Shown in pieces: positions 1 to 6,448 of a stretch of DNA of 6,448 nt; position 1 is the first letter of the stretch; every line of letters starts with the position of its first letter. Source of the DNA: Gammaproteobacteria bacterium (lineage in GTDB: Bacteria; Pseudomonadota; Gammaproteobacteria; Arenicellales; JAOTYS01); contig JAOTYS010000266.1 of NCBI GenBank assembly GCA_029861795.1, positions 1 to 6,448 of the forward strand. Reading direction: 5' to 3'. The translations under genes and the position numbers were made by a program. The notes below the pieces were generated by a model that searched no databases, was not told the origin of the DNA, and saw nothing but the letters and a program-made list of their open reading frames with translations.

Positions 1-1113
1 GTGGTCATTTGGAATTTGATTCGACGTTGTAACCTGACTTGTAAGCACTGTTACTCGATATCTGCACCTAAGGATTTCCCGGGGGAGCTTTCCACAGAGG
101 AAGTTTTCTCGGTGATGAATGATCTTAAGTCATTCGGCGTACCTGTATTAATTCTTTCTGGCGGAGAGCCCCTTCTTAGACCCGATATAATTGAGGTCTC
201 CAAACGAGCCAAATCAATGGGCTTTTATGTCGGTCTGTCTACCAATGGCACAATGATAGATGAAGCCAACATCGAGGAAATTGCCCACGTAGGCTACGAC
301 TACGTGGGTGTCAGTATTGACGGCATGCGAAAAACACATGATCGTTTTCGGCGTAAACAGGGCGCGTTCGATGCGTCGATGAATGGCATTCGTTTGTGTT
401 GTAGTCGGGGTATCAAGGTCGGACTCCGCTTTACCATGACTCAGGATAACGCCGGAGAGTTACCGCAGTTGCTTAAATTGATGGAAGATGAAGGTTTGGA
501 TAAGTTCTACCTTTCCCACTTGAACTACGCGGGTCGCGGCAACAAAAATCGAAAGTACGACGTGGCCCACGGCACCACTCGCTGGGCAATGGACTTACTC
601 TTCGACGTTTGTTGGAAAGATATTTCAAAAGGTGTCAATCGAGAGTTTGTGACCGGCAACAACGATGCAGACGGTGTTTACTTGTTACACTGGGTCAATC
701 GTTATTTTCCGGAGAAGGTCGGCCACATTCGTGCAAAACTTGCGCAATGGGGGGGTAATTCATCAGGAGTCAATATTGCCAATATTGACAATTTGGGCAA
801 TGTCCACCCAGATACTTTTTGGTGGCATTACAGTCTCGGCAACGTGCGCGATCGACCATTCTCAGATATTTGGATTGATACGTCTGATCCTATTATGGCG
901 GGCTTGAAGGCAAACCCGCGAAAGGTGAATGGTCGGTGTGGTCGGTGTCGGTACTTTGACGTGTGTGGCGGCAACACACGGGTGCGCGCTTTGCAGTTGA
1001 CCGGAGATCCGTGGGCGGAAGATCCCGCGTGCTATTTGTCTGATGCAGAAATCGGCATCGCAAATGCAAATCCCACCTTGAGTACATTGCAAACCGATCA
1101 GCTGCTCATGTAA
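1..1113 (+). CDS. nirJ: Heme d1 biosynthesis radical SAM protein NirJ (5' partial)
   Basis: NirJ is a cytoplasmic radical SAM enzyme of heme d1 synthesis; it acts on 12,18-didecarboxysiroheme to remove the two propionate side chains on the upper rings. The radical SAM cluster motif CNLTCKHC supplies C10, C14 and C17, followed by the GGEP motif at 54-57 that contacts SAM. The C-terminal part has C313, C316, C322 and C344 (pattern CGRC-x5-C-x21-C), the ligands expected for the auxiliary 4Fe-4S cluster of NirJ/SPASM-like proteins. The first base falls inside the gene: the GTG at 1 encodes a valine that in known NirJ proteins lies in a PxVIWNLLRRCN stretch, so about 30 N-terminal residues are missing to the left. 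The stop is TAA at 1111-1113. nirN follows after 30 nt, as expected for a nir operon, although nirE, which sits between nirJ and nirN in Pseudomonas aeruginosa, is absent here. Family assignment is very secure. Confidence 0.95.
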   Translation: MVIWNLIRRCNLTCKHCYSISAPKDFPGELSTEEVFSVMNDLKSFGVPVLILSGGEPLLRPDIIEVSKRAKSMGFYVGLSTNGTMIDEANIEEIAHVGYDYVGVSIDGMRKTHDRFRRKQGAFDASMNGIRLCCSRGIKVGLRFTMTQDNAGELPQLLKLMEDEGLDKFYLSHLNYAGRGNKNRKYDVAHGTTRWAMDLLFDVCWKDISKGVNREFVTGNNDADGVYLLHWVNRYFPEKVGHIRAKLAQWGGNSSGVNIANIDNLGNVHPDTFWWHYSLGNVRDRPFSDIWIDTSDPIMAGLKANPRKVNGRCGRCRYFDVCGGNTRVRALQLTGDPWAEDPACYLSDAEIGIANANPTLSTLQTDQLLM

Positions 1114-1143: not shown

Positions 1144-2736
1144 GTGATATCCGCAGGCCATCAGTGCGATTACGGCATTGGTTTAGGCAAGACTGTTTTC
1201 TTGCTTGTTTTTGTGCTTGTCCCGATATTGTTCAAAACTGCGAGTGCGCAAAGCCCCATCCGGGCAAGTGCTTTGTATCAACGGTATTGTGCTGAGTGTC
1301 ACGGTGCGGATCGACTGGGTGGAATGGGTCCGGCACTATTGCCGCAAAATCTTACACGGGTAAAGAAAGATCAGGCGTCAAAAGCGATTAGGCAAGGTCT
1401 TCCAGCGACACAGATGCCCGGTTTTGAGCAAGCCCTAAATGACGAAGACATTGACGCCCTAGTAGAGCATATCTACACGCCGTTGCTGGAGATTCCCACG
1501 TGGGCGCTTGAGGAAGTCAGGAACAGTCAGGTTGTATACAAAACCACCTCTGAATTGGTGGAGTCACCTGTGTACCACGCGGATCCTTTGAATTTGTTTG
1601 TGGTTGTCGAATCCGGCGACCATCACGTGACTATTCTCGACGGTGACAGACTTGAACCGATTCGGCGGTTTAAGTCTCGCTACGCGCTTCATGGCGGTCC
1701 GAAGTTTTCACCAACAGGTCGATTTGTGTATTTCGCTTCGCGCGACGGTTGGATTACAAAATACGATCTCTATGGGTTGACACGGGTCGCAGAGATTAGG
1801 GCGGGCATCAATACACGTAACCTCGCGGTGTCGAGTGACGGTCGTTTTGTAATGGTGGCGAACTATTTGCCGCACACGTTGGTCATCCTAAATGCGGACG
1901 ATCTTGGGCCTGAAAAGATCATTCCAGTAATCGATGCCCACGGCACCAGTTCACGGGTGAGCGCAGTATATGATGCACCCCCTCGCAACAGCTTTATCGC
2001 GGCGTTGAAGGATGTCACCGAGGTTTGGGAGATTCCTTACCATGACGACCCTCAGTACTACGGCATGGTCCACGACTATCGTTATGAAGGACCTCCTGAG
2101 GTAACGGAGTCGTTTCCTATCCGCCGAATCGGGCTCGACGACTATCTGGATGACTTCTTCTTTGATCAGGAATATCAGCACATTGTTGGCGCTGCGCGGA
2201 ATGCAAAGAAAGGGCAGGTGGTCAATCTAATTGTCGGGCGTAAGATCGCAGACATTGATATACCCGGGTTGCCCCATCTTGGCTCCGGTATCACATGGAC
2301 CTATCAAGGAAGACGAGTTCTGGCTACCCCAAATTTGAAACAGGCCCTGATCAGTGTCATCGACATGAAGTCATGGCAGACCATTCGTCAGATTGAGACG
2401 CTGGGACCCGGGTTTTTTATGCGCACGCATGAGAACACGCGTTATGCCTGGGTGGATGTCTTTTTCGGCCCTGATCGCGATGCGGTTCATGTCATTGACA
2501 AACATACCCTTGAACTGGTGCGAACATTGCGTCCTGCACCGGGTAAAACCGCGGCGCACGTCGAATTCACACGGGATGGACGGTTTGCCCTACTGAGTGT
2601 ATGGAATATGAACGGTGCAGTGGTGGTCTACGATGCCGAGACCCTTGAAGAGGTTAAACGTATCCCGATGAAGAAACCCTCGGGCAAGTACAATGTCTAC
2701 AATAAGATCACCCGCTCCGCAGGCACCAGTCACTGA
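1144..2736 (+). CDS. nirN: Dihydro-heme d1 dehydrogenase NirN (c-type cytochrome with d1 propeller)
   Basis: NirN is a periplasmic c-type cytochrome related to nitrite reductase NirS; in P. aeruginosa it performs the last step of heme d1 synthesis, oxidising one propionate to an acrylate, and hands the cofactor on to NirS. The 530-residue product begins with a Sec-type signal: hydrophobic residues 17-30, then a likely cleavage after the TASA motif near residue 35. The cytochrome c domain carries CAECH at 49-53 (heme c) and M91 in ATQMPGF as the likely sixth ligand. An eight-bladed d1-type propeller fills about 145-520. H183 in YALHGG sits where cd1 proteins have the heme d1 proximal histidine, and H378 in LPHLGSG lies in the region of the distal-pocket histidines. 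The phrase NLFVVVESGDHH and the length (about 490-530) favour NirN over NirS (about 560-600, different c domain) and NirF (no c domain). The start is GTG with no clear Shine-Dalgarno; it is in the same frame as the nirJ stop, so re-initiation is possible. Confidence 0.92.
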   Translation: MISAGHQCDYGIGLGKTVFLLVFVLVPILFKTASAQSPIRASALYQRYCAECHGADRLGGMGPALLPQNLTRVKKDQASKAIRQGLPATQMPGFEQALNDEDIDALVEHIYTPLLEIPTWALEEVRNSQVVYKTTSELVESPVYHADPLNLFVVVESGDHHVTILDGDRLEPIRRFKSRYALHGGPKFSPTGRFVYFASRDGWITKYDLYGLTRVAEIRAGINTRNLAVSSDGRFVMVANYLPHTLVILNADDLGPEKIIPVIDAHGTSSRVSAVYDAPPRNSFIAALKDVTEVWEIPYHDDPQYYGMVHDYRYEGPPEVTESFPIRRIGLDDYLDDFFFDQEYQHIVGAARNAKKGQVVNLIVGRKIADIDIPGLPHLGSGITWTYQGRRVLATPNLKQALISVIDMKSWQTIRQIETLGPGFFMRTHENTRYAWVDVFFGPDRDAVHVIDKHTLELVRTLRPAPGKTAAHVEFTRDGRFALLSVWNMNGAVVVYDAETLEEVKRIPMKKPSGKYNVYNKITRSAGTSH

Positions 2737-2747
2737 CGGCATTCAGT
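2732..2747. terminator. Short inverted repeat across the convergent nirN/nnrS stop codons
   Basis: ACTGA (2732-2736) and TCAGT (2743-2747) are perfect complements around a 6-nt loop. The left arm contains the nirN stop codon and the right arm overlaps the last base of the nnrS stop codon. There is no T-run on either side, so this is not a canonical intrinsic terminator. It could be a weak bidirectional end signal or chance; it is the only structure seen between the two convergent genes. Confidence 0.2.
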
Positions 2748-3913
2748 CAAGTAGGGGTTGTATCGAGCCTCGGCCTGACTAGCATCGGTGTAAAAACGAC
2801 TAGAAAGGTTAGAAAGGCACCAATCCACAATACACCTGCTATGGCAACAAGATTGACGTGATGTTGTGGTGTGATGATCGGCAGTACGACTCGAAATACA
2901 GCAGCCAGGTTGATCGTTAGGAAGGCAAAGACTACGGCACCGTGAGGTTTGAGCGGCCGGCCGGTATGACCAAGAGTAACGCGCACCATCATTCCCGTTG
3001 TCAGTACACCGATTCCGCCCACGGTAAATGCATGAATCGCCAATGCCGGTGATGCCGAACCGAGGATCGCCGCGCTCTTTAATACAAAACCAAGGATAAG
3101 CCATCCGTATCCTGTATAGAGTACCCATAGTATGGGTAACTGCCATATCTTTGGTGTGTGCCAGAGGAATAGACGTAGCCCGTTCATCGTTGCAGCGACC
3201 GCGGTCAACCCGACGATAATCACCGGATCAACAACAAAAAGTTCGACAATAAGCAGTGCGACGACAGGTGCGATAGTTAGAACGTCGACTATAGGATGCG
3301 CGGCGATCGTGACCTCTGGGATAGCTTTCTCGGTAAAAAATGGGATAACGCGTCCTCCAACGATGACCATCAACAAGACGATTACATTCAGCGCTAACTT
3401 TGTGCCCGTAGTGGCCGTGTTGGAACTGAGTCCGAGAACCTCTAGGTGTGTCAGTAAGTTTGCCAGGGCTAGCAGGAAAACAACCGGAACGAAAATGAGA
3501 TTCTTGTATTTTCTCTTTCTTAGTATGGGTGAAACTAGACTCACGGCTAAAATGGGTAGAAATCCCACGTCGATTACGGTGACCAATAGGCTTGGGAATA
3601 TGTCTGTAAAGTAAGGCAGAACTCGCCCGCTAAGCCAAACTGCGACAATCGCAGCGAGAGATTTGCCTTGTAATGTCGGTAGTTCTGTCCAGTTCTGTAC
3701 TGCGGTCAACAGGAATCCTGCGATTACTGCGCTGGTGTACCCGAACAGCATTTCGTGACTGTGCCAAACAGTGATGGGATAAAAACTGTGAGGAGCATAG
3801 CCGCGCATGTAGGTCATGATCCAGCCGAACATCAGTAAGCTGGCACACAGGCTCGCCATGAGGAAAAATGGTCGGAAGCCTATAGAAAACAAGACGATGT
3901 TTGAACGGCGCAA
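2747..3913 (-). CDS. nnrS: NnrS family heme- and copper-containing membrane protein
   Basis: NnrS is an integral inner-membrane protein, reported to bind heme and copper in Rhodobacter, that is induced with denitrification genes and protects cells against nitrosative stress. The 388-residue product has about twelve hydrophobic segments over nearly its whole length. It shows the family signatures GFRPFF (12-17), WHSHEMLFGY (50-59), GFLLTAVQNW (66-75), GRVLPYFT and GRVIPFFT (96-103 and 187-194), RLFLWH (247-252), IHAFTVGGIG (293-302) and RVTLGHTGR (311-319). The histidines at 51, 53, 252, 294 and 316 are candidate metal ligands. The reading frame opens with TTG. The family usually starts only a few residues before GFRPFF, which fits this start, but no Shine-Dalgarno precedes it. 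An AGAGAAG sequence lies further up, before an in-frame CTG at about 3938, so the true start could be about eight residues earlier. It converges with nirN and lies downstream of the hemerythrin gene on the same strand, 154 nt away. Confidence 0.93.
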   Translation of the reverse strand: MRRSNIVLFSIGFRPFFLMASLCASLLMFGWIMTYMRGYAPHSFYPITVWHSHEMLFGYTSAVIAGFLLTAVQNWTELPTLQGKSLAAIVAVWLSGRVLPYFTDIFPSLLVTVIDVGFLPILAVSLVSPILRKRKYKNLIFVPVVFLLALANLLTHLEVLGLSSNTATTGTKLALNVIVLLMVIVGGRVIPFFTEKAIPEVTIAAHPIVDVLTIAPVVALLIVELFVVDPVIIVGLTAVAATMNGLRLFLWHTPKIWQLPILWVLYTGYGWLILGFVLKSAAILGSASPALAIHAFTVGGIGVLTTGMMVRVTLGHTGRPLKPHGAVVFAFLTINLAAVFRVVLPIITPQHHVNLVAIAGVLWIGAFLTFLVVFTPMLVRPRLDTTPT

Positions 3914-4067: not shown

Positions 4068-4460
4068 CTAGCCAAGTCGAGAATGCAGGCGAGCGTCATG
4101 GGTCTTGAAATGAGTCGTGAACCATTCACTAAGTCGACTTCCTAGATATGACTCGTCCAACGTCTCCTTTTTCTCGCAGTCATCCATGATATCTAGGATC
4201 TCTTCGAGTAAGTGGTCGTGATCAGCTTTGTGTTCCTGATATTGATCGTAATGACTCTCTCGCATTAATTTCTCTTCAAGGGCAAAGTGCGCTGCAATCT
4301 TGGCATAAATCTCACCGAGAAATTCAGTTATCGCGGTCGCGGAATATCTGCGCGAGAGACTCATATACAATTCGTTCAATAGCTCGATCAGTGCGCGGTG
4401 CTCGTAGTCTATGGACGGTACCCCTACCGAGAATTCCTCTTTCCACTCTACCAGTGTCAC
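4068..4460 (-). CDS. Bacteriohemerythrin (diiron oxygen/NO-binding protein)
   Basis: This is a 130-residue single-domain hemerythrin, a cytoplasmic four-helix bundle that binds O2, and in some members NO, at a non-heme diiron centre. All seven iron ligands are present: H21 (after the IDYEH turn), H58 and E62 (HFALE), H77 and H81 (HKADH), H117 and D122 (HFKTHD). The N-terminus VEWKEEFSVGVPSIDYEHRALIEL is split here as VEWKEEFSVGVP followed by SIDYEHRALIEL and matches the family opening. Length is normal and there is no signal peptide or fused signalling domain. The start is GTG at 4460, supported by a strong Shine-Dalgarno GGAGG on the minus strand (4466-4470), 5 nt upstream. Neighbours point to a role in NO or oxygen handling during denitrification, for example delivering O2 or buffering NO; that role is inferred from context only. 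Family assignment is secure. Confidence 0.95.
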   Translation of the reverse strand: MTLVEWKEEFSVGVPSIDYEHRALIELLNELYMSLSRRYSATAITEFLGEIYAKIAAHFALEEKLMRESHYDQYQEHKADHDHLLEEILDIMDDCEKKETLDESYLGSRLSEWFTTHFKTHDARLHSRLG

Positions 4461-4567: not shown

Positions 4568-5074
4568 TCACTGCAGTATCTTGAACCCACCAGTTTCCAC
4601 CTTGAAATCAATGGCGAGGTTTTGCTTTGGAGCCAGCTCTATGTTTTCGGTGAGCTCATAGTCAAAGCCCGTAGAGCGAGGACTATCGCGCAAGCGTATC
4701 ACTATTTTGTGGGCGCCCGGTTCTACGGGGAACCGTTCATAGACCGTAGACGAACCATCACGCGCCAATCCTGAGGGTTGCACAAGTTGATGAAACAAAA
4801 GCTCGTCGTCCAAAAGTAGTTCCACCAACATTGATAAACGTTCGCGCGGGCAGTCTAGGGGTCGTCTCATATTGGGCGGTAGCTCGGCAATCTCCTCTGC
4901 GGTGAGGCGTCGGCACTCAGTTTGATGCTGAGCTGCGTGGCTGAGGCTGAGTTTGACTAGTGCTTTGTTAGGGGCAAGATGAATATAGGCAGGCGCTGAT
5001 GAAAAATAACCAATCACAATGGCAAAACAGAGATACGCAATGATCTGCCCTATGTACTGGAGCGCTTTAACCAT
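4568..5074 (-). CDS. Unnamed membrane-anchored protein coupled to the cytochrome b/Fe-S fusion
   Basis: I cannot assign a named family. From the ATG at 5074 the product is 168 residues: a short positively charged start (MVKALQ), one hydrophobic segment of about 20 residues (IGQIIAYLCFAIVIGYF), then a soluble domain of about 130 residues that the positive-inside rule places in the periplasm. That domain has two cysteines (in TECRRL and LDCPRERL) that could form a disulfide. Its C-terminal half (PGAHKIVIRLRDS, then FDYELTENIELAP) alternates like strands of a beta sandwich. An upstream in-frame ATG at 5107 would add 11 residues. I prefer 5074 because it overlaps the preceding gene by only 8 nt (ATGGTTAA on the minus strand), a typical coupling arrangement, and because an AGGAGG at 5132-5137 is too far (24 nt) from 5107. 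The tight overlap suggests it is a subunit or assembly partner of the cytochrome b/Fe-S protein. I recall similar small proteins near denitrification genes but cannot verify this. Confidence 0.82.
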   Translation of the reverse strand: MVKALQYIGQIIAYLCFAIVIGYFSSAPAYIHLAPNKALVKLSLSHAAQHQTECRRLTAEEIAELPPNMRRPLDCPRERLSMLVELLLDDELLFHQLVQPSGLARDGSSTVYERFPVEPGAHKIVIRLRDSPRSTGFDYELTENIELAPKQNLAIDFKVETGGFKILQ

Positions 5075-6448
5075 CGAGGACCACCGTAGGCGTACTGGAA
5101 TTGACATTACGATCAGTGTTAGCGCGAGTAGCCTCCTGAAGTTTAAGCAGACGTGTACGGAACGTATTTAGCTCCTCTATCAGTTTCTTCTGTTGCGCAG
5201 CACCGCCCCAGAATTGGACGATTCGCTCTCTGGGAGCGCGCTTGCGTAGAAACGGATCACGCTCCCCGTTGATGCGTTGTTCCATCCATTTAAGACCAAG
5301 TCGATAATGACAGTCTCCTTGACGACACCCTGTCAAGAACACCCCATCAGCGTGATTGCGTGAAACGACTAGGTCGATAAACGCAGGGGGCAACATGGCG
5401 ATGCAATTGAGCGAAACTATAGCGGTACCTTGCGCCTGCAGGGCTTGGAGGTTTGGGCCATGGGTACAACCAAAAACCAGAATTCGAACATCGCCATTGA
5501 GTTCTGCACAGACTTTCAGGGTTTGTTCGCGAACCTCGCGGATCGGGAGTGTGGGCAGATCAATCCCAGGCACTAATTCAGTTCGCCGACGAAATGGGGT
5601 TGAGGTCGGGCAGGCGCCTACGCAGATGCCACAAGAGACGCACAGATTTGGGTTGACCACCGCCTGATGCTCGAATGGTTTACCATCTGTGCGCGGTCCC
5701 ATGGTTACTGCACTGAAAGGACAGTCGGCCGCACAGCGATTGCAGCCATTGCAATTATCCAGGTCCACCACCGCCGCCGGTTGCCGCCGTCTGTACGGCA
5801 CCCATGGCAGTATTGCCAGTGCTAGAGTTCCCCCTATGAGTAGTGACCATAAGAACTGCCCAGAGTATCTATCCAACAAGGGGTAAAGTCCCAGGTAAAA
5901 CCAATCCAGGCTCACCACTGAAGGCACCTGGTTCAGATTGACTGGTCCCTGGCTGACCGCAGGAAATGCCAGGGACAAACAAAGCAACATGGCCAACGTG
6001 CCCGCTGCAAGGCCCAAGGGCGGGTTCACCTTGGGGTGGGTGCAGCGTTGTATATGAACCCACAAGAGAAACAGCAAGATGAGTGGTACAGCGATATGGA
6101 TGAATACCATCAAGGTAAAGAATCGACCACTTAACGTCGTATCGTGAAGAAAGTTTCTGGCTATGGGTTCGGCGAAGATACCGAGAGAGTCGAGCCATTC
6201 AGTAGTGGCGATTGCGATGTATTGTGCGAATTTGTCCCAAACCACCCAGTAGCCGCTAATTCCGGAAGCAAATACAAACCAAAGTAGAGCTAATCCGGTA
6301 ACCCATGAGAACGAACGTGCACCTCGCATTCGCTCCTTTATGTATTCGCGTAACAGATGCAACACCATCACTACTACCAAGGCGTCGGATGCATACCGAT
6401 GAAGGCTACGCATAATGCCTCCCGCATACCACTGGGTGTATGTGATTC
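5067..6448 (-). CDS. Cytochrome b / 2x[4Fe-4S] ferredoxin / MvhD-like fusion protein (5' partial)
   Basis: The frame is open to the right edge, and the residues just before the in-window ATG at 6413 (ITYTQWYAGGI) still read as cytochrome b, so that ATG is internal and the gene starts outside. Numbering from that ATG: H5/H19 and H106/H120, each pair 14 apart, are the four heme b ligands of the bc1/b6f cytochrome b core. Helices lie at about 10-27, 38-59, 98-121 and 134-153, plus one at 187-206. A loop with SLDWFY (168-173) sits where the Qo motif PEWY occurs in cytochrome b. A ferredoxin domain follows with C221, C224, C227, C231 and C258, C261, C264, C268. Residues 300-380 resemble the MvhD/FrhD delta subunit of hydrogenases, with C316, C337, and C363/C368 in GCRQGDCHY. 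The tail (about 405-430) may be a coiled coil. Arginine- and lysine-rich loops after helices 1, 3 and the last one place the Fe-S part in the cytoplasm. A role as quinone-linked electron transfer protein is inferred; the partner is unknown. Confidence 0.92.
   Translation of the reverse strand, partial: ITYTQWYAGGIMRSLHRYASDALVVVMVLHLLREYIKERMRGARSFSWVTGLALLWFVFASGISGYWVVWDKFAQYIAIATTEWLDSLGIFAEPIARNFLHDTTLSGRFFTLMVFIHIAVPLILLFLLWVHIQRCTHPKVNPPLGLAAGTLAMLLCLSLAFPAVSQGPVNLNQVPSVVSLDWFYLGLYPLLDRYSGQFLWSLLIGGTLALAILPWVPYRRRQPAAVVDLDNCNGCNRCAADCPFSAVTMGPRTDGKPFEHQAVVNPNLCVSCGICVGACPTSTPFRRRTELVPGIDLPTLPIREVREQTLKVCAELNGDVRILVFGCTHGPNLQALQAQGTAIVSLNCIAMLPPAFIDLVVSRNHADGVFLTGCRQGDCHYRLGLKWMEQRINGERDPFLRKRAPRERIVQFWGGAAQQKKLIEELNTFRTRLLKLQEATRANTDRNVNSSTPTVVLDG

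Follow-up and report, generated by a model that had tools for sequence, protein, structure and literature searches.

What does a membrane cytochrome b that carries ferredoxin and MvhD domains in the same polypeptide do in a nitrite/nitric oxide locus, and which enzyme does it serve? The window considered here is a 6,448-nucleotide stretch of a gammaproteobacterial contig (JAOTYS010000266.1) that ends inside the gene for this fusion protein, and the eNOR context discussed below is known from relatives. eNOR is a newly recognized enzyme that makes the greenhouse gas nitrous oxide from nitric oxide, and little is known about its electron supply. Loci of relatives carry L-numbers and genomes carry G-numbers. 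The window contains the following features.

5067..6446, minus strand: cytochrome b / 2x[4Fe-4S] ferredoxin / MvhD fusion, a single open frame of 459 amino acids whose N-terminus is cut by the contig end
6051..6446, minus strand: Pfam-matched cytochrome b part of the fusion, with heme histidine codons at 6399-6401, 6357-6359, 6096-6098 and 6054-6056
5601..5774, minus strand: two [4Fe-4S] ferredoxin motifs (CNGCNRCAADCP and CVSCGICVGACP), predicted on the cytoplasmic side from the helix order of the model
5139..5429, minus strand: MvhD/FlpD domain by Pfam; in relative L005 this part has a structure match to 5odc_D (E 1.1e-8)
4568..5074, minus strand: small membrane-anchored protein with a predicted periplasmic beta-sandwich, without a Pfam family
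4068..4460, minus strand: bacteriohemerythrin (NF033749, 99 bits)
2747..3913, minus strand: NnrS, a downstream neighbor
1144..2736, plus strand: cytochrome c / heme d1 protein, which we take to be of NirN type, with 62% identity to the L005 gene adjacent to nirJ
1..1113, plus strand: NirJ with its 5' end cut (TIGR04051, 624 bits)

Pfam places Cytochrome_B (42.4 bits against a cut-off of 27.2), two Fer4 stretches and FlpD/MvhD (PF02662; 43.6 bits against 22.3) in one reading frame of the 459-residue fragment. The heme-b histidines are residues 16, 30, 117 and 131, forming two pairs for two b hemes, and all eight ferredoxin cysteines are found. A preliminary description of this DNA had claimed four heme-ligand histidines, eight ferredoxin cysteines and an MvhD-type domain for a single polypeptide, and the family matches and located residues bear this out. 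It had also ended the MvhD domain at GCRQGDCHY; the motif is present at residues 373-381, but the domain continues to about residue 436. Both Cytochrome_B and FlpD occur in all of the best 120 of 5630 rows, the window's protein included, and the four histidines, the eight ferredoxin cysteines and four MvhD cysteines are invariant in 30 aligned relatives. The domain combination is thus more than chance. The alignment of relative L005 to 5odc_D covers three of the four MvhD cysteines.

Against full-length relatives the fragment starts near residue 69; the close matches listed are mostly 500-545 residues long (526 in L005). About 68 N-terminal residues are missing, among them an amphipathic helix and the first membrane helix, which are encoded beyond the contig end. 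The structure model, which is of moderate confidence (pLDDT 72.5), has six long membrane helices ahead of the ferredoxin; in Foldseek its membrane half is matched by cytochrome b, and its C-terminal end by MvhD. In cytochrome b the amino end is inside. If the same holds here, the model's helix order predicts that the ferredoxin and MvhD modules face the cytoplasm; a basic stretch just ahead of the ferredoxin (MPRKKTFS) agrees with this placement. Aligned relatives also have an invariant Asp-Trp in a loop between two helices that we label E and F. We take its position to be that of the PEWY site of bc complexes, and the loop suggests a quinone site. The earlier picture of a quinone-type cytochrome b with Fe-S and MvhD modules in a nitrite/NO locus holds, the cytoplasmic placement of the modules being a prediction.

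The same description had set the fusion gene beside heme d1 genes. They are indeed its neighbors, but nirJ and the nirN-type gene lie on the opposite strand and converge on it, and therefore do not belong to its transcription unit. On its own strand, the ATG of the small partner at 5074 precedes the stop codon of the fusion gene (5069-5067), an overlap suggesting that translation of the two genes is coupled. NnrS is found near the fusion operon in 4 of 54 relatives' loci.

The small partner is modeled as one helix and a beta-sandwich (pLDDT 94), and its relatives share invariant His46, Cys54 and Cys75, which suggest a metal site or a disulfide. Its gene comes after that of the cytochrome b, both in eNOR loci and in nirS loci. 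The probable place of the protein is the outer face, where it could aid electron hand-over or a copper site.

The 54 loci come from a scan of genome contigs in which genes were mapped by tblastn with reference proteins. Their operon order is CuA subunit II (42 loci), eNOR subunit I, CyoE (32), SCO (50), the fusion gene, the small partner (51) and hemerythrin (46), and a Defluviimonas plasmid has the identical gene order. The ferredoxin-MvhD part is present in 51 loci; it went undetected in L051 and L055, whose match is incomplete, and L053 has another version of the protein. Upstream of the fusion gene, 46 of the 54 loci have eNOR on the same strand. The other eight loci (L004, L009, L012, L017, L020, L035, L049 and L054) end within about 1.3 kb upstream of the fusion gene, before the place of eNOR; L012 also gives a weak eNOR match, to a second, downstream heme-copper-like protein. 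In L007 a run of N interrupts eNOR, so that only a 140-residue stretch of it is visible, and in L003, L013 and L042 the contig end truncates the gene. A COX15/CtaA-type gene is near the operon in some loci.

According to an excerpt of PMC8756737, a glutamine replacing the active-site tyrosine (HxxxQ) marks eNOR. HxxxQ, as GHSSQQ or GHGTQQ, stands in place of HxxxY in 34 of the 36 eNOR-type subunit I open reading frames called; in the other two (L006 and L013) the pattern matched elsewhere, so the count reads on 34 sites. By this residue the relatives' reductase is eNOR, a CuA-type heme-copper NO reductase. L005 subunit II has the CuA motif CNEFCGIGHHNM, with a Pfam COX2 score of 20.6 bits that is just below the cut-off of 22. 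Cytochrome b and eNOR diverge together over 28 loci (r=0.85), which linkage alone could also give.

Two further genes accompany some of these operons. One encodes a Crp/Fnr-type regulator, a possible NO sensor, which is near the operon in 17 loci and often directly upstream (for example, L032:5515-6234). The other encodes a second heme-copper-oxidase-like protein of 463-477 amino acids where complete (L010:9625-11016, L014:3493-4881, L019:2342-3736, L040:8239-9642 and L053:8364-9794; further loci are L012, L037, L086, L088, L090 and L091). In aligned sequences this protein has GHxxQ in helix VI and is without the helix VII His-His pair.

The association extends from operons to genomes. Among 398 genomes from the phylum of G004, the fusion (E<=1e-30) is found in 34 and eNOR (E<=1e-80) in 30. 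Both occur in 29, the fusion only in five, eNOR only in one and neither in 363 (Fisher p 8e-38, for genomes that are related and so are not independent events). In the eNOR-only genome, G119, the contig stops directly after SCO, where the fusion gene would start. In three of the fusion-only set (G277, G328 and G171) the contig stops at the operon or within it; a 5.3-kb contig of G195 includes CyoE and no eNOR, and in G187 the gene stands apart. The tight partner of the fusion is eNOR, an NO reductase, and the fusion makes a useful marker, since eNOR was detected in 29 of the 34 sampled genomes that carry it. In eight genomes (G095, G099, G115, G123, G135, G203, G211 and G231) the fusion and small partner genes adjoin nirS instead, with eNOR located on a different contig or at a distance of 13-20 kb. 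From the window alone, with no eNOR in view and the nir genes convergent, the protein might be taken for a chance neighbor unconnected with NO metabolism. Operon context, co-occurrence with eNOR and adjacency to nirS make that scarcely credible.

Partnership with eNOR appears not to be universal in the other direction. Within 9 kb of eNOR-like genes (GHGAQQ) on one Thermus and one Thermomicrobium plasmid, the fusion, the small partner and the alternative version described below are all absent. The fusion is therefore an added part and not a core or obligate eNOR subunit.

An earlier reading had electrons moving inward: quinol would be oxidized outside, and the b hemes would pass electrons through MvhD to a cytoplasmic acceptor, for which NirJ and an HdrA-like flavoprotein had been named. 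Scored in 50 fusion-bearing genomes, NirJ is above its cut-off in 22, with partial matches in three more (G002, G003 and G014). An HdrA-like protein is found in four at E<=1e-60 and in none above the cut-off (16 candidates scored per genome). Neither is therefore a general partner. None of the six window proteins scanned resembles HdrA, so the HdrA-like flavoprotein that the preliminary description took to be encoded upstream is not among them. NirJ as the acceptor is not supported by its distribution, and in 20 NirJ-less genomes NirF and NirDLGH went undetected too. The suggested link of the domain order to nir genes survives in part. NirS is found in 37 of the 50 genomes and not in 13, yet five of those 13 have NirJ and two more (G002 and G003) carry partial NirN- or NirJ-type sequences at the operon. 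The inward route itself draws on the Asp-Trp loop as a hint of a quinone site and on the docking of MvhD on HdrA in known complexes. Electron transfer from quinol to low-potential Fe-S centers is uphill, however, and the NAD(P)H-linked version of the protein better fits flow from cytoplasm to membrane. Together with the limited occurrence of both named acceptors, this makes the inward route improbable.

The 20 genomes just mentioned (G010, G012, G016, G018, G020-G022, G026-G028, G030-G032, G035, G040, G041 and G044-G047) merit separate description. None has NirJ above its cut-off, and NirF (threshold E<=1e-15) and NirDLGH (E<=1e-8) were both undetected in searches that picked up four of four controls; eight other NirJ-less genomes were left out of this count. 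NirS is present in 19 of the 20. In eight loci titled Woeseiaceae, Chromatiales or Gammaproteobacteria (L027, L031, L032, L033, L036, L041, L042 and L047), nirS adjoins a gene belonging to a cluster from which the single member tested is a TonB-dependent receptor. NirS in these genomes could be served by scavenged heme d1, or the metagenome-assembled genomes may have gaps. L032 also encodes a NirS-type protein with extra cytochrome c stretches ahead of the d1 domain (13470-15602), recalling the C1-C2-NirS order that an excerpt of PMC8756737 reports for Chloroflexi.

The alternative version of the fusion, here the FNR version, keeps the cytochrome b core and changes what lies inside the cell. 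In L040 (titled Gallionellaceae, genome G039) and L053, the same core is followed by Fer2, FAD-binding and NAD-binding domains, and 117 of the best 120 relatives listed in a search with the core carry these three domains. Among 150 genomes of the family of G039, the full-length FNR version is found in 33, eNOR in 33 and both in 31. Two (G570 and G595) have eNOR with no full-length match or only a partial match to the FNR version, and two (G555 and G589) show the reverse. Both versions occur in one operon in L040 and L091, and L086, L088 and L090 have tandem ferredoxin-MvhD copies. An excerpt of PMC10734462 reports eNOR in Gallionellaceae and has no mention of a cytochrome b partner.

This exchange of inner modules suggests a dedicated device that passes cytoplasmic electrons through b hemes toward NO reduction, and it hints at how eNOR may be fed. 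Our preferred reading, which we believe about as much as we doubt, is that the fusion is the membrane electron-transfer protein of the eNOR system, carrying electrons from a cytoplasmic donor through the b hemes to the outer side. MvhD would be the docking site of the donor, a flavoprotein linked to NAD(P)H or ferredoxin. Electrons would then pass through [2Fe-2S] and [4Fe-4S] sites to hemes bH and bL, and from there to the outer side, either to quinone or directly to the NO-reducing chain. NO reduction would in that case not depend solely on the bc1 complex. We infer the direction of flow mainly from the existence of the NAD(P)H version; the acceptor may be quinone, CuA, or the copper or heme of an enzyme still being assembled. 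A bolder form, less probable than not, has eNOR (perhaps with the second heme-copper-like protein) fed from the cytoplasm by NAD(P)H or a ferredoxin-type donor, bypassing bc1 through a cytochrome b whose cytoplasmic plug is swapped among lineages.

Several findings weigh against a role in electron supply. Five genomes have the fusion with eNOR undetected, and the fusion gene sits amid genes for the assembly factors CyoE and SCO. No gene for a cytoplasmic donor was found traveling with the fusion gene. A CuA enzyme can take electrons from cytochrome c. Cytochrome c is cited as the eNOR donor in an excerpt of PMC8879329, which counts against a dedicated cytochrome b supply.

The main rival, unlikely in our estimate though to be taken seriously, is that the fusion is an assembly reductase. 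Its outward electrons would be spent on reducing copper, SCO thiols or a heme intermediate during construction of the copper sites and modified heme of eNOR, much as CcoG serves the assembly of cbb3 oxidase, except that here the path would run through b hemes. The frequency of SCO and CyoE at these loci, the occasional COX15/CtaA-type gene, and a partner modeled as periplasmic with an invariant His-Cys-Cys set all fit this role, as does the accessory character implied by the Thermus and Thermomicrobium loci. According to an excerpt of PMC13038864, the membrane proteins CcoG and CrpH assist heme-copper enzymes, supposedly by reducing copper. Neither the fusion protein nor its small partner has a FixG/CcoG family among its Pfam matches (E<=0.001), although a function of that kind may still be present. 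The choice of two cytoplasmic modules, and the tandem copies next to a second heme-copper-like protein, would suit respiration better than assembly, and eight genomes have the gene relocated next to nirS and apart from eNOR. If the fusion is instead the electron-transfer protein that we favor, then a dedicated cytochrome b with interchangeable inputs would let the redox state of the cell interior drive N2O formation.

No description of a cytochrome b-ferredoxin-MvhD fusion was found in the open-access literature searched; the main eNOR study is reportedly that of Murali et al., where the fusion partner may have been noted. Comparison with known systems shows which parts are familiar. Like eNOR, also called ba3-a1, the relatives' reductases in Pseudomonadota carry the marker glutamine, and the fusion gene belongs to their operon, whereas the cytochrome b partner is missing from the Thermus and Thermomicrobium loci seen. 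The order of ferredoxin then MvhD, with its cysteines conserved, is shared with the C-terminal part of HdrA2 and with MvhD of Hdr-Mvh. The match to HdrA2 is confined to that part (66 bits against a full-length cut-off of 1100), and the fusion has no HdrA flavin domain, being joined instead to a membrane cytochrome b.

The membrane half resembles cytochrome b6 and the cytochrome b of bc complexes in the canonical spacing of its four histidines, in helices that presumably correspond to A-F and in the loop that we take to be PEWY-like. It differs in having Fe-S modules in place of the last helices, and no Rieske protein or cytochrome c1 is among the annotated L001 operon genes or the L005 open reading frames. 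The best NCBIfam match of the L005 cytochrome b half is ExtP (114 bits, and 65 for the window, against a cut-off of 290), and ExtQ matches the helices that follow. Both scores are far below the cut-offs, and ExtP and ExtQ are separate families of a selenite/tellurite reduction operon. Finally, the FNR version shares its Fer2, FAD and NAD domains with a module that we take to be of NqrF type, and is set apart from it by fusion to a bc-type cytochrome b and by its tie to eNOR.
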